Positions 1 to 42,385 of a stretch of 64,000 nucleotides of DNA are shown here, one piece after another. The notes beneath the pieces are model-generated. The model did no database searches, was not told the DNA's origin, and was given only the letters and a program-made list of their open reading frames with translations. This DNA comes from Thermoanaerobaculia bacterium (GTDB lineage Bacteria > Acidobacteriota > Thermoanaerobaculia > UBA5066), in contig JAJVIN010000017.1 of the NCBI GenBank assembly GCA_022071945.1, positions 95,251 to 159,250 of the forward strand, written 5' to 3'. Position 1 is the stretch's first letter. Each line of letters begins with the position of its first letter. A program made the position numbers and the translations under genes.

Positions 1-3000
1 ACTTTCATCCGGGACAGCGCATCAGCTTCTACGAGATCGGGTCTCTTCTCGGCCGGGGTGGGATGGGAGACGTCTACTCGGCAATCGATACGCGGCTCGG
101 CCGCAAGGTTGCCCTGAAGAGACTCCGGATCACGAACTCGGCCCAGGACCCCGTCTACCGGCGCTTCCTGCGCGAGGCCCGCGCGGCATCGGCTCTCAAC
201 CACCCCAACATCATCACGGTCCACGGGCTCGAGGAGTGGGAAGGCTGGCCCATCCTCGTCACCGAGCTCGTCGAGGGATCGACGCTTCGCGCCCGGATCA
301 AGGCCGGAATCAGCCTCGCGGACGCCGTGGAGGCCGCCGTCCAGGTTTCCTCGGCCCTCGCCACGGCGGCTTCCGCCGGCATCGTCCACCGCGACATCAA
401 ACCCGACAACATCATGATCCGGCCTGACGGGCTCGTGAAAGTCCTCGACTTCGGCCTCGCGAAGATCCTGCCGGCCGTCAAGGACGCGACATCGGCGGGC
501 GACGCCGCCGTGACGGAGGTCAACCAGGTCGTCGGAACGCTGCGCTACATGTCGCCGGAGCAGCTCAAGGGCCTCGAGCTCGACTCCCGCTCCGATTGCT
601 GGAGTCTCGGGACCGTCCTCTACGAGATGGTGACGGGCGTGCCGGCGTTCAAGAGGGCTTCTCAGGCCGAGACCATCACCGCCATCCTGACCCAGTCCCC
701 CGCGGAGCCGGGCGCCCTCGTGACCAACCTCCCGCCGTCGCTCGTGAAGGTGATCGCCAGGTCCCTCGAGAAGAACCCCGAGAAGAGGTTCTCGCCGGCC
801 GAGATGCTCGAGGAGCTCCTCGCGGTCCGGGAAGAGATCCCGGCCCGCAAGGCCGCTTCCACTCGATCCTCCAGCGGCGGCTGGCTCAAGAGCTCGAGCG
901 GGTCTCTCCCGGCGCCGCCCACCGGAGACTCGGACACCGAGATCCTCGAAAAGGCGACGGCGACCTCGGGAACCGGCCCGTTCGTGCTGCTCCCCCAGGA
1001 GCGAACGAGCTTCGTCGGACGAGAGTCCGAGCTCGCCGCGCTCCGGACTCTTCTGCGGCGAAACGAGACACGGCTCGTCACCCTGACGGGACCCGGAGGG
1101 ACCGGGAAGACCCGTCTTGGCGTGGAGGCAGCCCGGCAGCTCTCTCGGGAGTTCCGCGACGGCACCGCCGTGATCCCCCTCAGCAACGTGACGAGCCCGG
1201 GCAAACTGGCGTCCTTCATCGCCTTCACTCTCAACCTGCGCGAGGCAGGCGGGACGTCCCTCGAGGACATCCTCTTTTCTTTTCTCAGGTCCCGGGATTT
1301 CCTCCTGGTCCTCGACAACTTCGAACAGATCGCCGAGGGGGGAGCCGCGTTTCTGGATTCCCTGATCGAGGCGACCTCGCGTTTGAAGATCCTCGTGACG
1401 AGCCGTGTGCTCCTCAGGCTCACGGCGGAGACGGAATTCCCCGTTCTCCCGCTCCCGGTTCCCCAGGCGGATGACGAGATTGCCACGGAGGTCCTGGCCG
1501 AGAGCCCCGCCTTGCGCCTCTTCGCGGAGCGAGCCCGCGGCGTCAGTCCCGGATTCGAGCTCTCGACCGCGAACATCCGCCCGGTCGCCGAAATCTGCCA
1601 GCGGCTCCAGGGCCTCCCGCTGGCGATCGAACTGGCCGCTTCGCGGGTGAAGATCCTCCCCCCGCCCATGCTCCTCGAGCGCCTCTCGAGCCAGCTGAAG
1701 CTCCTGACGGGGGGGGCCAGGGACCTTCCCCAGCGGCAGCAGACGATGCGCGGAGCCATCGACTGGGGATACGCGCTCCTGCCGCCGGAGGAGCAGGAGC
1801 TCTTCGCAATCCTCGGGGTCTTCGCGAACGGATTCACTCTCGAGGCCGCCGCCGAGGTGACGGGAGACCCCCTGACCGGGTTCGACCTTCTCGACGGCAT
1901 CACCTCCCTCGTCGAGAAGAGCTTCTTGAGGCGAGAGGAACTGCCTGAAGGGGTCCGCTTCTCGATGCTCGAGGTCATCCGGGAGTACTCCCTGGAGAAA
2001 CTCTCGCAATCGGGTTTCCTCGAGAGTGTCCGCGAGCGGCACGCCCGGTATTTCCTCGAGTTCGCCCTCCTTCTCTCACGGGCGGCGGAGGAGATGAGCG
2101 AGGGCGCGGTTCTCGAGACACTCGACCGGGAGCACGAGAATCTCCGCGCCACCCTCCGCTGGGCACGTGAGCGGTCGGACGGCAGTTTCCTGCTCGAGCT
2201 CGCGGGCTCCCTGCGCTGGTGCTGGTATCTGAGAGGACTCTACGCCGAGGGCCGCCAGTGGCTCGAGGAGGGCATGCAGCTTCCCGGAGAGCTCCCGCCG
2301 TCCGCCCGCCTCAAGGGCCATCTCGGCGCCGGGCACTTCGCGTTCCTTCAGTGCGACTACGCCAAGGCCGAACTCCATCTGATCGAAGCCCAGAGGCTCG
2401 CCGAATCGCTTTCGGACAGGGACTCTTTCGCCACCGCGGTCCAATACCTCGGAAGCGTCGCCCGCGAACAGGGGGACTACGCCGTCTCCCTCGCCCGCCA
2501 CGAGCAGGCCCGCCGGATCTACGAGGAGGATGGGGACGTGCGGGGCCGCGCCCGCTCCCTCAACTACATTTCCCTCGCCTCGTGGCTGCAACAGGACTTC
2601 GATGGGGCTGAAGCGGCCGCGGAGGAGGCCATCGAGGCGTTCGAGGCGGTGGACGACAAGGAAGGAATGGTCTGGGCGCAGCTGAACCGGACGGCGATCG
2701 CCCTTCATCAGGAAAAGCTCGAGGAGGCGCAGACGCGCGGCCGCGACGCCCTCAACCTGGCGGCGAGCGCGGGGTTTCAGGAAGGGATTGCCTGGGCCCT
2801 CGATCTCCTCGGCCGGACGGCCCTCTCCCAGGGCTCCGTGCCGCGCGCGGCCGCTTACCTCTCGAGGAGCCTCAACCTCCACTTCAGACTGGGAGACCGG
2901 TGGAGGGCGTCGACCGTTCTGGAAGCGATTGCACGCCTCAGGCTCGAGAGAGGCGACCCCGAGAGAGCGGCCACGCTCTTCGGGGCCGCTCACCGGATCC

Positions 3001-3170
3001 GTTCTCTCGTCTCGACTCCGGTGCCGGTCGCGGAACGGCCCGGGGTGGAGGACGCCGTTTCCCGGTGCCGGGCGGCCTTGTCTTCCGCGAAGTTCGACGC
3101 CGCCTGGAAGACGGGCACCGGCTTCACCCTCGAGAGAGCCGTGAAGTTCGCCACGGGCATCGCGGGCTGA
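1..3170 (+). CDS. Ser/Thr protein kinase fused to STAND-type ATPase and TPR region (5' end outside window)
   Basis: The frame is open from base 3, so the true start lies upstream. The glycine loop (LLGRGGMGDVY) begins before the first in-window Met at base 63. Counting from that Met, the kinase has VALK (Lys19), HRDIKPDN (109-116) and DFG (129-131), all intact, so it should be catalytically active. An ATPase of the AfsR/MalT (STAND) kind follows, with the FVGRE entry motif, Walker A GPGGTGKT near 341-350 and Walker B LLVLDNFE. The last 300 or so residues are TPR-like helices. No DNA-binding or membrane segment is visible. The architecture suggests a cytoplasmic signalling kinase whose ATPase/TPR part gates activity or recruits partners (inference). 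It converges on the next gene across a hairpin. Confidence 0.9.
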   Translation, partial: FHPGQRISFYEIGSLLGRGGMGDVYSAIDTRLGRKVALKRLRITNSAQDPVYRRFLREARAASALNHPNIITVHGLEEWEGWPILVTELVEGSTLRARIKAGISLADAVEAAVQVSSALATAASAGIVHRDIKPDNIMIRPDGLVKVLDFGLAKILPAVKDATSAGDAAVTEVNQVVGTLRYMSPEQLKGLELDSRSDCWSLGTVLYEMVTGVPAFKRASQAETITAILTQSPAEPGALVTNLPPSLVKVIARSLEKNPEKRFSPAEMLEELLAVREEIPARKAASTRSSSGGWLKSSSGSLPAPPTGDSDTEILEKATATSGTGPFVLLPQERTSFVGRESELAALRTLLRRNETRLVTLTGPGGTGKTRLGVEAARQLSREFRDGTAVIPLSNVTSPGKLASFIAFTLNLREAGGTSLEDILFSFLRSRDFLLVLDNFEQIAEGGAAFLDSLIEATSRLKILVTSRVLLRLTAETEFPVLPLPVPQADDEIATEVLAESPALRLFAERARGVSPGFELSTANIRPVAEICQRLQGLPLAIELAASRVKILPPPMLLERLSSQLKLLTGGARDLPQRQQTMRGAIDWGYALLPPEEQELFAILGVFANGFTLEAAAEVTGDPLTGFDLLDGITSLVEKSFLRREELPEGVRFSMLEVIREYSLEKLSQSGFLESVRERHARYFLEFALLLSRAAEEMSEGAVLETLDREHENLRATLRWARERSDGSFLLELAGSLRWCWYLRGLYAEGRQWLEEGMQLPGELPPSARLKGHLGAGHFAFLQCDYAKAELHLIEAQRLAESLSDRDSFATAVQYLGSVAREQGDYAVSLARHEQARRIYEEDGDVRGRARSLNYISLASWLQQDFDGAEAAAEEAIEAFEAVDDKEGMVWAQLNRTAIALHQEKLEEAQTRGRDALNLAASAGFQEGIAWALDLLGRTALSQGSVPRAAAYLSRSLNLHFRLGDRWRASTVLEAIARLRLERGDPERAATLFGAAHRIRSLVSTPVPVAERPGVEDAVSRCRAALSSAKFDAAWKTGTGFTLERAVKFATGIAG

Positions 3171-34186: not shown

Positions 34187-34306
34187 CTCTGATTCTCCGC
34201 GATGGGACCCGAACGGAAGCCGTTCTTGGCCAAAAGCGGGGTCATTCTACTCTCCGGAGTGCCCGAGACTTGTCCCCCGCCCCGAGGGCTCCTATCCTCG
34301 CCCCGA

Positions 34307-34720
34307 ATGAGGCTTCTCGGCGTCGACTTCGGAGAGAGGCGGATCGGAGTGGCCGTCTCGGACGAGACGGGAGAAATCGTGCTTCCGGCAGCGACCCTGG
34401 AACGAAAAAGCGACCGGCAGGCGGCCTCGGAAATCTCCCGGATGGCCAGGGAACGCGAGGTCTCGGGCATCGTGCTCGGGCTCCCCCGGCGTGAGGACGG
34501 AACCGAAGGCAAGACCGCAGCGAGGGTCCGGAGCTTCGCGAAAAAGCTCGAGGAAGAGACCGGGCTCGCCATCACCTTTCACGACGAGAGCGGGACGACG
34601 GTCGAGGCGCACGGAAGACTCGCGGACTTCGGGTCCGTCGGCCGGGCCGGAATCGACGCCGTGGCCGCAGCCGTTCTCCTGGAGGACTACCTCTCCGAAA
34701 GGCGTTCTTCCGGCCGATGA
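34307..34720 (+). CDS. ruvX: Holliday junction resolvase-like protein RuvX/YqgF
   Basis: 137 residues from ATG at 34307. The RNase H-like core opens with LLGVDFGERRIGVAVSD (Asp7), continues with VLGLPRREDG, and ends with GIDAVAAAVLLEDYL, holding the last catalytic Asp. The middle motif reads DESGTT where the family usually has DERxTT, so the Arg is replaced by Ser. YqgF proteins act in 16S rRNA 5' processing or as Holliday junction resolvases. The stop overlaps mltG by 4 bp, a common pairing. Confidence 0.93.
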   Translation: MRLLGVDFGERRIGVAVSDETGEIVLPAATLERKSDRQAASEISRMAREREVSGIVLGLPRREDGTEGKTAARVRSFAKKLEEETGLAITFHDESGTTVEAHGRLADFGSVGRAGIDAVAAAVLLEDYLSERRSSGR

Positions 34721-35796
34721 GAGGGCACCTGATCCCCGTCTCGCTGTGGACTCTCCTGGCCATCGGTCTCGGAGCCGTCGTCGCCGTCAGCCTGGTCGTT
34801 TTCGCCGTCAAGTCGCCGTACAAGGGCTATCAGTCCGATTCCGTCCTGGTCCGGATCCCGCCGCGCTCCTCGACGCTCTCGATCCTCAGGGCGCTCGAGG
34901 AAGGGGGCGTCATCCGCGATTTCCGCATCGGCTACATCGCGCTCCGTGTGTTCCACAAGGGAAAGACCCTCCGGGCCGGCGAGTACCGGTTCACCGGCCC
35001 CCGCTCGGTCGAGCAGGTCATCCTGACGATCGCCGCGGGGGACGTCGTCACCTACCGCGTGACGATCCCCGAAGGTCTCACGGCGGATGAGATCTTTTCC
35101 ATCTTCTCGTCGCAGGGATTCGGCTCGGCCACGGAGTATTCCCAGCTCTTCGAGAGGCCCCAGGATTTCGAGGGCGTCCCGGAAGGGGCGCCGACCCTGG
35201 AGGGGTTTCTTTTTCCCGAGACCTTCGTCATCACACGGTCGATGACGGCCCGGGATATCGTGGCCATGCTCACGCACCACTTCGCCGAGAGGCTGCCCGA
35301 GGGGTATGCCGAGAAGGCCCGCCGCGCCGGACTGTCCGTCCTGGAGGCCATCACCCTGGCCTCGCTCGTGGAGAAGGAGACCAGCCTCGATGTCGAGCGG
35401 GCCCTCGTCTCCGCCGTCTTCCACAACCGGCTCAAGCGCGGGATGGCGATGCAGTGTGACCCGACCACGATCTACTCGCTGAAGAGGCTGGGCCGCTGGA
35501 AGGGCTATCTGACGCGATCGGATCTCTCGGTCGCCGACCCATACAACACGTACGTGATCCCGTCCCTGCCGCCGGGCCCGATCTGCTCCCCGTCGCCGGC
35601 CTCGATCCGCGCCGCGGTGGCTCCGGCGGACGTCGACTATCTCTATTTCGTGGCCCGGGGGGACGGCTCTCACCTCTTCGCCTCTGACTATGAAACCCAG
35701 CAGCGAAACGTCGCCCTCTACCGGGAGTATCAACGGAGCGCCCGTGAGGCCGCCCGGGCTCTGAAAGAAGCCGCGTCCGTCCCCGCCAGTCCGTGA
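34717..35796 (+). CDS. mltG: Endolytic murein transglycosylase MltG
   Basis: 359 residues with an N-terminal membrane helix (about 9-30), a LysM-like part (IPPRSSTLSILRALEEGGV), then the YceG catalytic domain. The catalytic Glu219 lies in LVEKETS, followed by VFHNRLKRGMAMQCDPT and the PLPPGPI-type segment (IPSLPPGPICSP). It cuts nascent glycan strands at the inner membrane. Coupled to ruvX by ATGA. About 85 bp without a clear signal separate it from the pseudokinase gene. Confidence 0.95.
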   Translation: MRGHLIPVSLWTLLAIGLGAVVAVSLVVFAVKSPYKGYQSDSVLVRIPPRSSTLSILRALEEGGVIRDFRIGYIALRVFHKGKTLRAGEYRFTGPRSVEQVILTIAAGDVVTYRVTIPEGLTADEIFSIFSSQGFGSATEYSQLFERPQDFEGVPEGAPTLEGFLFPETFVITRSMTARDIVAMLTHHFAERLPEGYAEKARRAGLSVLEAITLASLVEKETSLDVERALVSAVFHNRLKRGMAMQCDPTTIYSLKRLGRWKGYLTRSDLSVADPYNTYVIPSLPPGPICSPSPASIRAAVAPADVDYLYFVARGDGSHLFASDYETQQRNVALYREYQRSAREAARALKEAASVPASP

Positions 35797-35884
35797 TCGG
35801 TCCGCCCCTCAACGCCCGGTCCCGTGCGCTACACTCAATGGCACGAGCCCCCAAAGGGCCCAACTTGACCTCAGCGGAGAGATG

Positions 35885-37753
35885 ATGTCGGAAAAGCGCC
35901 CTCTTCCCCGGCTCTTCGGCCCGTTCGTGTTGACGCGATCCATCGGAAGCGACTCGCTCGGCGAGACGTTCCGGGCCGCGTCCGTCCCCGATCCGAAAGC
36001 CCCAGCGGGCCCGCTGAGCTTCTCGCTCGTCCGCACCTTCGACGGAGAGGCGGTCGACGGCAAGGCTCTCTTGCCTGCCATGGAAACAGCCGTCGAGTAC
36101 CTCGAGGAAGTCCGTGGACAGGCCGTCGCCAAGGGCACGGTCCTCGGAATCGTCGATGACGTTCCGTTTGCCGCGATCAACTACGTGCCGGGTCAGACGC
36201 TCGACCGCCTCCTGAAAGGGCCGAAAGGCGAGGGCGTCGCCTTTCCGATCGAGCACGCCCTCCTCATCGGCGAGAAGATCCTCATCGCCCTCGAGGCCGG
36301 GAAGGCCTTTGCGAGAGAGACCGGCGCCCCGCACGGATTCCTGGTCCCGGCCTTCGTGACGGTGTCCAACGACGGAGATACGCGCGTCTTCGGCGGAGGC
36401 CTCGGACCCGGCCTTCTCCCCTCGATCAAGAACGACAAGGCGCGAGAGCAGTTCGCCGCCTATCTGGCCCCGGAAGTCATCGAGACGGGCAAGCCCTCGG
36501 TGGCCGGTGACGTCTATTCCACGGCGGCCATCGTCTTCGAGTGCCTCACCGGCAAGCCGCTTCCGCCGGGAAAGTGCGAGGACGCCCTGATCGGGGCCGT
36601 CTTGGCCCTCAACGGCAACCCCGTCCCGGATGACATCCTCAAGCTCCTCGCCAAGGGCCTCGCTCGCGAGGTCCCCCGGCGCGAAAACGACATCACCGCG
36701 TTCAAGAAAGCTCTGGGCAAGCTCCTCTACGCGGGTCCCTACGCCCCGTCGACGTTCAACCTCGCGTTCTTCATGCACCAGACCTTCGAGCGCCAGATCG
36801 AGGACGAGCGCAAGGAGCTGGCCGAAGAGCAGAAGACGGACGTCGCCGGAATCGTCCAGGCCGAGGAGAAGGCCGACAAGGAGCGGATGGCGAAGGCCAA
36901 GGCCGCCGTCGCGGCCTCTCTCCCGCAGCCGCCGGTTCCGAAGTTCGGCCTCGAGACGTCGGCCGGAACCGCCGCCAAGAAATCCGGTCCCCCGATCGGC
37001 GCCATCGTGGGCGGCCTCCTCGTCGTGGGCGCCGTCGTGGGCTTCCTCGTCATGCGAGGGGGAGAGAAACCCCAGCCCGCGCCGCCCGTCGCCGCCGTCC
37101 CGGAGGCACCCAAGGCGACGCCGACTCCCGTCATCCCGCCGACTCCCATCATCCTCGGCAAGGAAGACCCCGAGTTCCAGAAGGCCCTGCAGAAACAGCT
37201 CGACGAAGAAATGAAGAAGGTGCAGGACCAGATCAAGAAAGAGCAGGAATCGGCCGCAAAGAAGCTGCAGGTGGAGCAGGCGAAGGCCGACGCCGCCGCC
37301 AAGAAGCTCAAGGATGCCGAGGAGGCCGCCAAGGCCGCCCGCGACCGTGCCGACGCTGAGGAAGCCTCGCGGCTGGCGAAGGAAGTGGAAGAGGCCCGCC
37401 AGCTGCAAGAAGCCGCGAGAAAGGCTGCCGAGGCGGCCGTGCCCAAGATCAAGGAAGGCGACCTCATCGACGTCACCCAGGTCGATCAGCCGCCCCAGAG
37501 GACGAAGATGGTCCTCCCCGAGGCGCCCTCGGCCGCGCGTTCCCGGCGCGTTTCCGGCACTGTCCTCCTCCGCGTTCTCGTGGACGAGAACGGAAAGACC
37601 TCGCGCGTCGAGATCCTGAGAGACACCAATCCCGCCGTCGGTCTCGCGGAGGCATGCGTCGAGGCCGTGAAGAAGTGGGAGTGGACACCGCCCATCAAGG
37701 AGGGCAAGAAGGTCAAGACCTGGGTCGTCGTGCCGATTCCGTTCAAGCTCTGA
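35885..37753 (+). CDS. Pseudokinase - membrane helix - coiled coil - TonB C-terminal domain protein
   Basis: 622 residues from the second ATG (35885); an ATG one codon earlier is equally possible. Residues 1-285 align in layout with a Ser/Thr kinase, but the catalytic elements are gone. At the HRDxKxxN position stands HGFLVPAFV, and at DFG stands FGGG. The later helical lobe (APEV, then GDVYSTAAIVFECLTGKPLP) is preserved. A membrane helix (about 368-390) is followed by a Pro-rich stretch, a charged Ala/Lys/Glu coiled coil (about 425-525) as in TolA, and a TonB C-terminal domain (VSGTVLLRVLVDENGKTSRV to the end). Predicted topology is pseudokinase inside and TonB domain in the periplasm. A FHA histidine kinase and a TonB-dependent receptor follow. 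Confidence 0.88.
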   Translation: MSEKRPLPRLFGPFVLTRSIGSDSLGETFRAASVPDPKAPAGPLSFSLVRTFDGEAVDGKALLPAMETAVEYLEEVRGQAVAKGTVLGIVDDVPFAAINYVPGQTLDRLLKGPKGEGVAFPIEHALLIGEKILIALEAGKAFARETGAPHGFLVPAFVTVSNDGDTRVFGGGLGPGLLPSIKNDKAREQFAAYLAPEVIETGKPSVAGDVYSTAAIVFECLTGKPLPPGKCEDALIGAVLALNGNPVPDDILKLLAKGLAREVPRRENDITAFKKALGKLLYAGPYAPSTFNLAFFMHQTFERQIEDERKELAEEQKTDVAGIVQAEEKADKERMAKAKAAVAASLPQPPVPKFGLETSAGTAAKKSGPPIGAIVGGLLVVGAVVGFLVMRGGEKPQPAPPVAAVPEAPKATPTPVIPPTPIILGKEDPEFQKALQKQLDEEMKKVQDQIKKEQESAAKKLQVEQAKADAAAKKLKDAEEAAKAARDRADAEEASRLAKEVEEARQLQEAARKAAEAAVPKIKEGDLIDVTQVDQPPQRTKMVLPEAPSAARSRRVSGTVLLRVLVDENGKTSRVEILRDTNPAVGLAEACVEAVKKWEWTPPIKEGKKVKTWVVVPIPFKL

Positions 37754-37780
37754 GACTCCCCCACGCAAGGGAACTGAAGG

Positions 37781-37813
37781 CCGGGAGGGTCCGCGAGACC
37801 TTCCCGGTTTTTT
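37781..37813 (+). terminator. Rho-independent terminator after the pseudokinase-TonB gene
   Basis: An 11-bp stem (ccgggagggtc / gaccttcccgg, one G-T pair) with a 5-nt loop is followed at once by six T residues. It lies 28 bp beyond the stop at 37753 and separates this gene from the FHA histidine kinase. Confidence 0.85.
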
Positions 37814-37924
37814 CTTCTGGAGCCGCTTGACCAGCCCGGAGACGGCGGTTCCCCGGGGGGCCTCGTTCTTTGACGCCCGTTCCCGCCGAAGACCGCTAGA
37901 ATCCCCCGCAAGGCTTTTCCTTTC

Positions 37925-39598
37925 GTGTTCGTTCTGGAGATATTCAGCTCGCGCTCTGGCCTTCGCCGCGTTCCCCTGGAGCCCGGAAACTACGTAGTCG
38001 GCCGGTCGAACATGGCCAACATCCTCCTCGAGGATGTGAGGTGTTCCCGCATCCATGCGCGGATCAACCGCGAGGATGAAGCCGTCACGGTCGAGGACCT
38101 CAACTCACGCTTCGGGACGTTTCTGAACGGGCAGCGGGTCGTCGAGATCAGCCCCGTCCGGCCGGGGGACCAGATCGTCATCGGCGACACGACCGTCATC
38201 CTGAAGTTCGCTCCCGAGGACGAGGGGGACGACGCGACGGTCAGCCAGTCCCAGTCCGGGGCGATCGACCACTCGTTGACCCTCTACTCGTCGCAGAGGC
38301 TCCTGCAGATCCCGATCACGAGCGAGTCGATCGATCCGGTCCAGAGGGGCCAGTTCTTCGAGCTCCTCTTCGAGGTCTTCAAGGAGCTCCTCTACGACCG
38401 TCCCCAGCAGGAGCTCTTCAACCTGATCCTCGAGAAGCTCTTCCAGGTGCTTCACGCCGACCGGGGTGTCATCCTGATCAAGGACTACACCGGCTCGTTC
38501 GTTCAGGCGGCGTCCCGCTTCGCCGCCGGCGTCCAGCCCTCTCAGTTTCACCTCTCGCGCACCCTGCTCGACTCCGTCACGAGGCAGCGCAAGGGCGCCC
38601 TCTTCGTCAGTTCCGGCTCGGACGAACCGGGCCAGGAGTTCGTCTCGCTGAGGATCCAGGGGATCTCGTCGTGCCTGGCCGCGCCCCTCTTCGTCGAGGA
38701 CGACGTGATGGGCCTCGTCTACCTGGACGTCAGGCTGAGGCGCAAGGAATACACGCTCGAGGACCTCCGGCTCGTCACGGCTCTCGCGAACATCGCCGCC
38801 ATCAGGATCCGGAGCGCCCGGCTGTCCGAAGCCGCGGCCCAGCGCGACGCCGCCGAGAAAGCCATGGCCGCGGCCGAGGAGGCCAACCGCGTCAAGAGCC
38901 AGTTCCTCGCCAGCATGAGTCACGAGCTCAGGACGCCCCTCAACGCCATCATCGGCTACACGGAAATGCTGAAGGAGGACGCCGAGTCGCAAACGCTCGT
39001 GCAGTTCCTCCCGGATCTCGACAAGATCCACCAGGCCGCCAAGCACCTGCTCGGCCTCATCAACGACATCCTCGACCTGTCGAAGATCGAGGCGGGCAAG
39101 ATGGCCCTCGTCCTCGAGACCTTCGACATCCACCCGATGCTGCGCGAGGTTCTCTCGACGGTCTCGCCCCTCGTGGAGAAGAACAACAGCCGCCTCGAGC
39201 TCGAGTGCCCGCCCGGTATCGGCACGATGCACGCCGACGTGACCCGCCTGCGCCAAGTCCTCTTCAATCTCCTCGGGAATGCCGGGAAGTTCACGCAGAA
39301 CGGAACTGTCCGCCTCAGGTGCCGCCGGGAAGGGATCGGAGCGGCCGAGACCCTCGTCTTCGAAGTCCACGACACCGGCATCGGGATGAGCAGGGAACAC
39401 CTGGCAAGGCTCTTCCAGCCGTTCTCGCAAGCCGACGCGGGCACGTCCCGGAAGTATGGCGGCACCGGACTGGGTCTGGTCATCAGCCGGAAACTCTGCC
39501 AGATGATGGGCGGAGACATCTCCGTCACCAGCGAGGTCGGGAAGGGCTCACAGTTCCGGGTCGAGCTCCCCTCCCGCGTTCAGCTCGAGAGCCGCTAA
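37925..39598 (+). CDS. FHA-GAF sensor histidine kinase, cytoplasmic
   Basis: 557 residues from GTG at 37925; a later ATG would cut into the FHA fold. Residues 1-100 are an FHA domain ([30 protein letters not shown]), which binds phosphothreonine. A GAF domain covers about 150-310. HisKA has phospho-acceptor His333 in [11 protein letters not shown]. HATPase shows [15 protein letters not shown] and GGTGLGL. No membrane helix and no receiver. The FHA domain links it to Ser/Thr kinase signalling, of which this window has several members. The transmitter module is closely similar to that of the Reg_prop kinase at 17668-20655. The gene converges on the TonB receptor with a 6-bp gap. Confidence 0.93.
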
Positions 39599-39604
39599 GG
39601 CCGC

Positions 39605-42385
39605 TTAGAAGTTGAACCTCGCGCCGAGCTGGAAGATCCGTCCCGGGCCGTAGAGGGTCGGCGCCCCAAAGTTCGGCTGGTTCTCGACATTCTGGACGGA
39701 GAGAACGTTCTCGTGGTCGGTGATGTTGGTACAGACCGCGACGAGCTCGATACCGGCCTTCTCGGAGAACGAGATCATCTTCGAGATCCTGAGGTCGAGG
39801 GTGAACTGGTCCGGCAGCGTGCCCGAGTTCCGGCCGACACCGGCCGGCCTGTCCGAGAGCGGATCCCCATTCTGGTTTCTGTCATAGCCCGCCAGGATGT
39901 TGTAGGGGAGGTCTTTCTTCCAGTCGAGGATGAGGGCGATCGTCCAGTCCCGGGTGAAGGCATTCCCGCCGCGGCCCACGTTGGAAAAGATCCCCGTCGC
40001 CACGATCTTGTGCTTGGGGGCGTGAATCGACGGTCCCCGCTCGTCGGCCGGATTGAGGGGATCCTGCGGCTGGAACTCCGTGAGCCAGTCGATGTAGTCG
40101 TCCTCGGAATCGGCGTAGGTGTAGAACGTCGTGAACTCGAAGAGCCCGCCGAGGCGGCTGATGAGACCCACCGTCGCGCCCGTGTACCAGGAGTTGCCCG
40201 TCGATTCGTAGAGGAATATGTCGGAGTAGGCGGGATTGGGCCGGCCCGTGGGCGGCTTCGTGATGGGGTTGATGTTGCGGTTCGTCAGGATGTCGCGGCC
40301 CCGCGCCCAGACGAAATCGACGCTCGTCAGGAGCTTGCGGCCGAACTCGACCTCGAACCCCAGATTCGCCTGATCCGTGTAGGCACTGCTGAACTCGCCC
40401 GGCTGCAGAATCGTCGGCGGGACAACCGAGCTGCCCGCGGAGGCGGCGTCGGGGAACCGGCGGTCCGGCAGGATGTTCCAGGGAACCAGGGGCGACGGCC
40501 CACCCTGAATCGTGCGGACGAGAGTCTGGACCTTCACTCCGTTCTGGATGTTCACGGCGAACATCGGTCCGACCGCCACGGTCCCGACGAAGCGGCCGTA
40601 CCCGCCCTTCACGCGGAAGTTCTCGAGCGGAGCATAGGAGAAGGAGGCCCGGGGCGAGAACGTCGAGTCCGAGGGGAACGGATCGATCGGGTTCTCGTAG
40701 TCGTAGCGCGCCCCCAGACGCAGGATGAACTTGGCCGAGAGGTCGAGGTCCGCCTGGAGGAACCCTCCGAGCTGGTAGGCCGTCTCGTCTCCGGTCGGAT
40801 CCCCGAAACCCTGGGCAAAGACCGCGGGAACCCCGGCCGCGAAGGCTTGACGAACCGTTAACCCCTGCGGGAAAGCCTGGGAGGCCGGAAGGGCAGAGAA
40901 CCGGTAGAGACCAAAGAAATTGAGCGGGAGCTGACCCTGAAGGTTGTAATGGGTCAGGTCGAACCCAACCTTCACCTTGAGCGGACTGTTCTCCTTCCCC
41001 GGCTGGAAGGAGAAGGCATCGAACAGCTGGAAGAGCGTGCCGTCACGGACCTGGCCCAGAAGGCGCTGCGTCCCCGCCGTGGCCACGCCGGGCAGAGTGA
41101 TGGAGACTCCCCTCTTCGGATCGAGCGTGGCGAGGTCCAGGGTCCCGTTGCTGTAGAGCAGCCGGACCTCGTTGAACGAGTGCGCTCCGAACACGGAAGT
41201 CAGGGAGGCCGCGCCGGTGATGTCCTCGGAATCACGGAACCCGCCCGCTGTCTTGGCCACGAGACCGCCCCAGGCCTGCGCGTTTTCGTCCTTGCCCTTC
41301 GACCAGTTTCCTCTCAGGGTGAAGATGTGGGAGGGCGAGAACTGGTGATCGATCTTCGCCACGAGTGCATCCGAACGCAGGATGTAGGGCACGTTGCCGT
41401 TCTCGACCTCGAACCCCTTGCTCCTCAAGAGCGTGATGTCGTCGGGCAGGATCGTCACGGGATTCGCCGTGTCGGTTGACTGCCGCTCGTACGCCGCGAA
41501 GAAGAAGCTCCGGTCTTTCACGAGCCGGCCCCCGACCGACGCCCCGAACCGGTGGTCGTCCAGCGGGACCTTCTCTCCCGTCAGGGGGTCCTCGCTGGAA
41601 AGGCTGTCACTTCTGTAGAAGTAGAAGAGGCTCCCGCCGAAGTCGTTCGTGCCGGACTTCGTCACGATGTTGATGATTCCCGCCGCAGTCCGGCCGTACT
41701 CGGCGCTGTAGGGATTCGAGATGACCTGGTACTCCTGCACCGCATCCTGGGAGAACTGCGCGCGGACAGCTCCGGACGCCTGGTCGTTGTTGTCGAATCC
41801 GTCGACCGCGAGGTAGTTGTACCTCGGGCTGACCCCGTTGATCGAGAAGCCCGAGGAGGCCGCCGCCCCGCTCTGCGGGCCCCGGTCCTCCGAAACGCGA
41901 GGCGTGGTCAGCGAGAAGGACAGAAAGTTTCGCGAGACGTTCGGAAGACTCTGAATCTGCTGACTGTTGATCCCCAAGGAAAGATCCGTCTTCGTCAGGT
42001 CGAGGAGCGCGGCCTCGGCGGTGACCGTCACCGCGGCCTCCGCGGCCTGGGCCGGCTTCAGCACGATGGCGATCGCCGTCGCCTGACCGAGGTTCACCCG
42101 GACGTTCTCCACTCGAGTCGGCGCAAAGAGCGCGAGCTCCGCCGAGACCGTGTAGACGCCCGGGGAGAGCAAGGGCACCGTGAACCCCCCCTCGACATCC
42201 GTCGTGTGGGACCGGGCCAGACCCGTCTCTCGGTTCGTCGCGGTGACGATCACTCCGGGCAGGCCGAGCCCCCCCTCGTCCTTGACTCGGCCTCGGATGT
42301 CACCGCTAGTGGTTCCCGTCGTCTGCGCGAAGGCAGGGCCGGCGAGAAGAAAAAGGGCCGATAGAAAGAGAACTCCACGCCGCAT
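39605..42385 (-). CDS. TonB-dependent outer-membrane receptor with carboxypeptidase-regulatory domain
   Basis: 926 residues with a signal peptide (cleavage near AFA-Q, about 20). Residues about 25-110 are a CarboxypepD_reg-like beta domain (GDIRGRVKDEGGLGLPGV). The plug follows (VDGFDNNDQASGAVRAQFSQ) and then a long barrel ending in the aromatic C-terminus FQLGARFNF. This type is common in Acidobacteriota and Bacteroidota. The cargo is unknown. The ATG is preceded by GAGGAGG. A 7-bp inverted repeat sits 12 to 33 bases upstream of the start. It lies 1.9 kb from the pseudokinase-TonB gene, which could supply its TonB partner (inference). Confidence 0.92.
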   Translation of the reverse strand: MRRGVLFLSALFLLAGPAFAQTTGTTSGDIRGRVKDEGGLGLPGVIVTATNRETGLARSHTTDVEGGFTVPLLSPGVYTVSAELALFAPTRVENVRVNLGQATAIAIVLKPAQAAEAAVTVTAEAALLDLTKTDLSLGINSQQIQSLPNVSRNFLSFSLTTPRVSEDRGPQSGAAASSGFSINGVSPRYNYLAVDGFDNNDQASGAVRAQFSQDAVQEYQVISNPYSAEYGRTAAGIINIVTKSGTNDFGGSLFYFYRSDSLSSEDPLTGEKVPLDDHRFGASVGGRLVKDRSFFFAAYERQSTDTANPVTILPDDITLLRSKGFEVENGNVPYILRSDALVAKIDHQFSPSHIFTLRGNWSKGKDENAQAWGGLVAKTAGGFRDSEDITGAASLTSVFGAHSFNEVRLLYSNGTLDLATLDPKRGVSITLPGVATAGTQRLLGQVRDGTLFQLFDAFSFQPGKENSPLKVKVGFDLTHYNLQGQLPLNFFGLYRFSALPASQAFPQGLTVRQAFAAGVPAVFAQGFGDPTGDETAYQLGGFLQADLDLSAKFILRLGARYDYENPIDPFPSDSTFSPRASFSYAPLENFRVKGGYGRFVGTVAVGPMFAVNIQNGVKVQTLVRTIQGGPSPLVPWNILPDRRFPDAASAGSSVVPPTILQPGEFSSAYTDQANLGFEVEFGRKLLTSVDFVWARGRDILTNRNINPITKPPTGRPNPAYSDIFLYESTGNSWYTGATVGLISRLGGLFEFTTFYTYADSEDDYIDWLTEFQPQDPLNPADERGPSIHAPKHKIVATGIFSNVGRGGNAFTRDWTIALILDWKKDLPYNILAGYDRNQNGDPLSDRPAGVGRNSGTLPDQFTLDLRISKMISFSEKAGIELVAVCTNITDHENVLSVQNVENQPNFGAPTLYGPGRIFQLGARFNF

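Follow-up and report, generated by a model that had tools for sequence, protein, structure and literature searches.

The window, as we term the whole stretch of 64,000 nucleotides that was analysed, encodes a protein (hereafter PSK) that combines a catalytically dead kinase lobe with a transmembrane (TM) helix and a TonB-type C-terminal domain (TonB_C), and that almost always co-occurs with an active sister kinase elsewhere in the same genome. This near-constant co-occurrence suggests an undescribed kinase/dead-kinase pair signaling across the envelope. We tentatively interpret PSK as the non-catalytic member of such an inner-membrane-spanning pair, a reading to which we lend slightly less than even credence, with the physical pairing itself predicted from comparisons of sequence. 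What is new here is a membrane pseudokinase that bears a TonB-type extracytoplasmic domain, together with its active twin.

Domain architecture of PSK

The features of PSK and of the genes around it are as follows:

34202..34720, + strand: RuvX/YqgF, which opens the conserved ruvX-mltG-PSK group
34717..35796, + strand: endolytic transglycosylase MltG, conserved in the class and lying 85 bp upstream of the PSK gene
35882..37753, + strand: PSK, the pseudokinase-TM-coiled coil-TonB_C gene, an ORF of 623 aa (ORF, Pfam, family profile, orthologues)
35912..36730, + strand: cytoplasmic pseudokinase domain, residues 11-283 (family profile against StkP, dN/dS)
36032..36034, + strand: R51 at the position of the ATP-binding beta-3 lysine
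36332..36358, + strand: HGFLVPAFV (residues 151-159) at the HRDLKPxN position, catalytic Asp and Asn gone
36392..36400, + strand: GGG (residues 171-173) at the DFG position
36746..36781, + strand: PSK family motif PSTFNLAFFMHQ, immediately C-terminal to the C-lobe
36995..37051, + strand: TM helix, residues 372-390, with no histidine
37169..37438, + strand: long helix/coiled coil in the periplasm, approximately residues 430-519 (structure model)
37526..37750, + strand: TonB_C, residues 549-623 (Pfam, Foldseek)
37925..39598, + strand: FHA-GAF histidine kinase (FHA, GAF, HisKA, HATPase_c; no TM helix), a neighbor with no conserved partnership
39605..42385, - strand: Oar-like TonB-dependent receptor (CarboxypepD_reg, OMP_b-brl_4, Plug), convergent, a neighbor with no conserved partnership

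The ORF begins at 35882; position 35885, where the gene had been said to start, is that of the second methionine. Pfam searches detected the TonB_C domain of TonB energy transducers at residues 549-623 with an E-value of 1.2e-14, and a Pkinase match with an E-value of 5e-4, which lies under the Pfam cut-off. PASTA repeats were absent from PSK in the Pfam search, and the NCBIfam PASTA-kinase match covered the kinase part and fell far under its cut-off. A single TM helix is followed by a proline-rich stretch, the long helix and TonB_C, with 157 residues, about 90 of them helical, lying between the TM helix and TonB_C. The AlphaFold model was built from an input of three sequences and is of low confidence over much of its length (mean pLDDT 51), with a poor N-lobe; in Foldseek searches its TonB_C matched 1u07 and 6i97 (TM-score to target 0.78-0.85), and many kinases were matched weakly on the C-lobe. 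Together, Pfam, TM prediction and fold match confirm the originally predicted union of a TM helix, a TolA-like coiled coil and TonB_C in one protein. Four residues of the motif that follows the C-lobe (T291, F292, N293 and A295) are invariant across 23 orthologues from the same class as the window genome (in-class, below).

Loss of catalysis in the kinase lobe

The bilobal kinase fold was recovered by a PSK family profile built from 15 members, which aligned to StkP, its best PDB match, over positions 11-276 with an E-value of 2e-27. None of the residues that mark an active Hanks-type Ser/Thr kinase, namely the beta-3 Lys, the HRD Asp, the catalytic Asn and the DFG Asp, is present in PSK. Relative to StkP, the beta-3 Lys is replaced by R51, the HRD by H151 G152 F153, the Asn by F158 and the DFG by G171 G172 G173. 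Retained are the APE motif (A196 P197 E198), the alpha-F Asp (D210) and R267, which is of the type of arginine that ordinarily pairs with the APE in kinases.

In all 30 of the aligned in-class orthologues the HRD slot reads H-G-x (the third residue in the class being F, L, A, C, V or G) and the DFG is missing; their beta-3 position is most often occupied by Arg. The same pattern repeats in a wider motif table that adds more in-class proteins and 19 from outside the class, with lengths of about 600-750 aa. Among the orthologues of roughly 650 aa that align over the active-site positions, nearly all combine H-G-x with the lack of DFG and none has the HRD Asp. The motifs are degraded further in one in-class locus (L059), and in a few distant relatives the H too is gone (Y-G), the G is gone (H-N in L122), or a Lys occurs near beta-3. 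The alignments with StkP and with the orthologues thus bear out the prediction that the kinase lobe layout is kept while HRD, Asn and DFG are lost, making PSK a true pseudokinase. Misalignment masking active residues, which had been named as a way in which this could fail, is ruled out by the family profiles and the active sisters. The recurrence of the pattern indicates that catalysis was lost long ago and is fixed in PSK across Acidobacteriota.

In close orthologue pairs, dN/dS was 0.07-0.17 for the dead lobe (residues 1-300), 0.12-0.30 for the linker and 0.12-0.55 for TonB_C. The dead lobe is thus the most constrained part of PSK and is under strong purifying selection. A decaying pseudogene is ruled out, given that PSK is open in relatives and its dN/dS is far below 1. 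Among close species of one genus (g5: L011, L012 and L014), TonB_C showed a dN/dS of 0.40-0.55 versus 0.07 for the dead lobe, as if the partner of TonB_C varied.

Relationship to known envelope proteins and pseudokinases

In its layout of a kinase lobe, a single TM segment and an extracytoplasmic domain PSK resembles the PASTA Ser/Thr kinases StkP and PknB; however, it is catalytically dead, lacks any PASTA match and has TonB_C instead. With TonB and TolA it shares the TM helix, the periplasmic linker or coiled coil and the TonB C-terminal fold, but it differs from them in its 370-residue cytoplasmic kinase-like domain, in its TM helix and in its genomic setting. In TonB proteins, a TM histidine couples the protein to ExbB/ExbD. 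We noted that the PSK helix IGAIVGGLLVVGAVVGFLV has no histidine, whereas both clear TonBs of the genome (contigs C15 and C30) carry one in their TM segment, which makes it unlikely that PSK is a TonB driven by the proton motive force. The only two ExbB/MotA matches in the genome lie on contigs C11 and C15, the latter beside the TonB, and none is near PSK. A role of PSK as such a TonB is therefore not supported, and the earlier suggestion that the pseudokinase regulates energy coupling is unlikely for the same reasons. PSK may instead offer a case of a TonB-type domain serving signaling rather than energy transfer.

Among pseudokinases, the MviN/MurJ protein of Mycobacterium tuberculosis (ActPs3) likewise has a pseudokinase within an envelope protein, and its dead lobe acts as a scaffold that PknB phosphorylates and the FHA protein FhaA recognizes (PMC12599244). 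PSK differs from it in having no flippase and a TonB_C tail, and in belonging to Acidobacteriota rather than Actinobacteria. The hallmark of ActPs3 is a deletion in the activation loop (PMC12599244), and no such shortening was seen in PSK between the DFG slot (171-173) and the APE (196-198) when compared with StkP. EssB/YukC is also a membrane-anchored pseudokinase with degraded motifs, but belongs to a secretion apparatus of Firmicutes and lacks TonB_C (PMC12599244). The GLW pseudokinases have G-L-W in the HRD slot and Leu or Trp in place of the beta-3 Lys (PMC12599244); judged by this published definition, PSK, with its H-G-x slot and predominant Arg at beta-3, does not fit that family. A review from 2025 that covers the families of pseudokinases in bacteria (ActPs1-3, GLW, CP1, DYD and DLHK) has none of the words TonB, Acidobacteri- or MltG (PMC12599244). 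No description of a pseudokinase-TonB_C fusion was found in the literature searched, from which subscription papers were mostly absent, in agreement with the earlier statement that no system of such make-up was known to have been described. A plasmid search with PSK gave generic kinase matches only, and a scan of named genomes yielded only two loci, both from Acidobacteria, which says little about other phyla because exact patterns were used.

Genomic neighborhood of PSK

We compared 40 orthologous PSK neighborhoods from the class of the window genome, using a home-made gene caller and tblastn. MltG was found no more than two genes upstream of PSK on the same strand in 32 of the 40, and RuvX no more than two genes upstream in 32 as well. 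A same-strand gene follows PSK in only 3 of the 40, suggesting that PSK is usually the last gene of its group; the downstream genes change between families while ruvX-mltG stays upstream. From this placement we infer that in the class PSK is probably made together with MltG, the terminator of peptidoglycan strands. PSK may report on wall growth, with its position behind ruvX-mltG being unnecessary for its persistence. A promoter and terminator scan gave a result at chance level. In one genome (G019, locus L057) two tandem PSK genes follow mltG.

Eight of the 40 loci have no MltG upstream of PSK, and six of these belong to a single family, f11 (L045, L049, L051, L053, L055 and L079), where PSK directly follows ruvX. 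MltG was not detected in these six genomes with a query that found it in 4/4 other members of the class, an apparent family-wide loss. Conversely, genome G018 and the genomes checked of genus g18 keep lptD, ruvX and mltG in a region that lacks PSK. Linkage to mltG is thus a conserved feature but not an obligatory one, and MltG as an obligate partner of PSK is ruled out, given that each occurs without the other. Outside the class PSK is placed elsewhere, not beside MltG. Furthermore, the upstream lptD-thiolase side is syntenic too, which weakens the inference from linkage.

Pfam confirmed that an FHA histidine kinase and then a TonB-dependent receptor adjoin PSK in the window. However, the FHA kinase was next to PSK in none of the 40 in-class neighborhoods, and a TonB-dependent receptor lay within two genes of it in just one. 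Among the full-length relatives found, the one closest to the window FHA kinase (55% identity) is in genome G005 on contig C28, and the PSK of that genome is on contig C38; roughly 14 receptors of this family are encoded by the window genome. These observations make the trio most likely a local chance arrangement. The window also encodes, at 63-3170, a further Ser/Thr kinase that forms a fusion with an NB-ARC/AAA ATPase and TPR repeats.

Two readings of the neighborhood have to be weighed against these counts. The original prediction saw in the pseudokinase, the FHA histidine kinase and the receptor a possible single uptake or signaling system, with PSK acting as its TonB, and proposed a search for their conserved co-occurrence. 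In its favor one could cite the adjacency of the three genes in the window, the TonB fold of the PSK TonB_C, and the FecCD-type importer and, in some genomes, the TonB receptor that lie close to the active sister rather than to PSK; but the 40 in-class loci revealed no conserved neighborhood of this kind, the receptor is convergent, and the histidine-free TM helix of PSK and the ExbB genes on other contigs speak against a TonB role. The survey largely refutes such a unit, which we now consider very unlikely. The ruvX-mltG-PSK order seen in most in-class genomes, along with downstream genes that differ by family, could instead mean that PSK chiefly regulates MltG: a signal from a kinase would arrive at the cytoplasmic dead lobe, and the periplasmic part of PSK would hold or gate MltG and so set glycan-strand length. 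This is modeled on streptococci, where the Ser/Thr kinase StkP controls MltG via DivIVA and EloR (PMC10269899). However, the f11 genomes with PSK beside ruvX and no detected MltG, the g18 and G018 genomes with MltG and no PSK, the separation of the two genes outside the class, and the shared synteny of the lptD-thiolase side, which may account for part of the linkage, render this reading improbable, though still worth considering.

An active sister kinase and the proposed pair

The window genome encodes the active sister as a protein of 1013 aa on contig C29 (L040:6919-9957), with a receiver domain, an intact kinase (VAIK, HRDVSPQN, DFG), one TM helix, a proline-rich stretch and TonB_C. All five sisters scanned have the receiver, Pkinase and TonB_C domains, the last being under cut-off in one of them, and the motif table shows VAIK / HRD[VI]SP.N / DFG intact in active sisters. 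Profile-profile alignment of PSK with the sister extended over 609 columns (probability 100, E-value 4.9e-82), spanning the post-kinase motif and TonB_C. Despite this end-to-end homology, the sister differs from PSK in its receiver domain, its intact active site and the gene that follows it (see below); its TM helix lacks histidine, like that of PSK. In a kinase-domain tree the PSK group, the sister group and a group of 26 further kinases from the genome received SH-aLRT values of 99, 93 and 99 respectively, and PSK and the sister are closest to each other if the tree is rooted among the ordinary kinases, a root that was assumed. In the loci read the two genes are never adjacent, and the pairing thus rests on shared ancestry and co-occurrence.

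Across 297 acidobacterial genomes, 74 have both proteins, 6 only PSK, 16 only the sister and 201 neither (Fisher p 3e-46, a test that ignores phylogeny). This scoring was done by hand, a sister being called at a best E-value <1e-100 and PSK on a match that scored at least about 140 bits and whose frame lay apart from the sister locus, such that diverged members may be missed. In the sample from the class (n=61), 47 genomes have both, one only the sister (G018), two only PSK (G013, which is 75% complete, and G040) and 11 neither. The last comprise ten species of genus g18 and G007, which is 77% complete. All ten g18 genomes lack PSK and the sister alike, and ruvX-mltG is intact in those checked; this joint loss with retention of MltG favors the sister over MltG as the candidate partner of PSK.

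In the proposed pair, PSK and the sister would meet in the inner membrane, and their TonB_C domains would bind a component of the wall, outer membrane or periplasm, or each other. The dead lobe could act allosterically by docking on the active kinase, or be its phosphorylated scaffold, and the state of the envelope would thereby set the output of the active kinase, with the receiver domain of the sister contributing a two-component input. Against the pair stand its exceptions, G018 with a sister and no PSK and G040 with PSK and no sister, and the many kinases in these genomes (about 100 domains in that of the window). A fuller scheme, which is speculative and somewhat unlikely to hold as a whole, would have an undescribed acidobacterial trans-envelope system built on a heteromer of a receptor kinase under receiver control and its dead twin, each with TonB_C at its end; the heteromer would sense the condition of the wall or outer membrane, with the twin in one class being built into the ruvX-mltG locus and helping to set glycan-strand termination.

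Two further readings dispense with the sister or with the loss of activity. The 157 residues between the TM helix and TonB_C, with about 90 of them helical, would suit a passive TolA-like tether, whose TonB_C binds an outer-membrane or wall partner, whose coiled coil crosses the periplasm and whose dead lobe merely anchors cytoplasmic partners. A plain anchor would, however, be an odd role for a lobe that is the most constrained part of PSK (dN/dS 0.07-0.17 versus 0.12-0.55 for TonB_C), and this, along with the end-to-end homology to and co-occurrence with an active kinase, leaves the tether quite improbable. It might also be argued that some non-canonical transferase or nucleotide-binding activity persists in the fold and that PSK is no true pseudokinase, as certain dead-looking kinases such as SidJ have a different activity (PMC6858067) and a few distant PSK members have a Lys near beta-3. 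As the window protein has substitutions at the Lys, the HRD Asp, the catalytic Asn and the DFG Asp alike, and the in-class family throughout lacks the Asp of HRD and that of DFG, we consider this very improbable. The kinase/pseudokinase pair, if real, would be of wider use. To our knowledge, bacterial pseudokinases are largely unexplored by experiment, and an old, strongly selected dead kinase with a co-occurring active twin constitutes a natural matched pair for asking what bacterial pseudokinases do.

Several other features of the sister and its loci were observed. The window genome (6.2 Mb) has about 100 Pkinase matches over the cut-off, with PSK being the only listed match under it. A gene for a coiled-coil protein of about 75 aa, with a sub-threshold match to Tup_N and to no other Pfam family, lies directly after the sister in 20/20 sister loci read across the phylum (L040:10035-10253 in the window genome); the listing has 21 rows with L115, whose best match is a shorter active kinase. 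In the class of the window genome the sister is often then followed by a periplasmic binding protein, a FecCD permease and an ABC ATPase (L040:10424-13068, checked with Pfam, and L129, L130, L133, L136, L141 and L142), and in L129, L130, L137 and L140 a TonB-dependent receptor is found near the sister, upstream and divergent.
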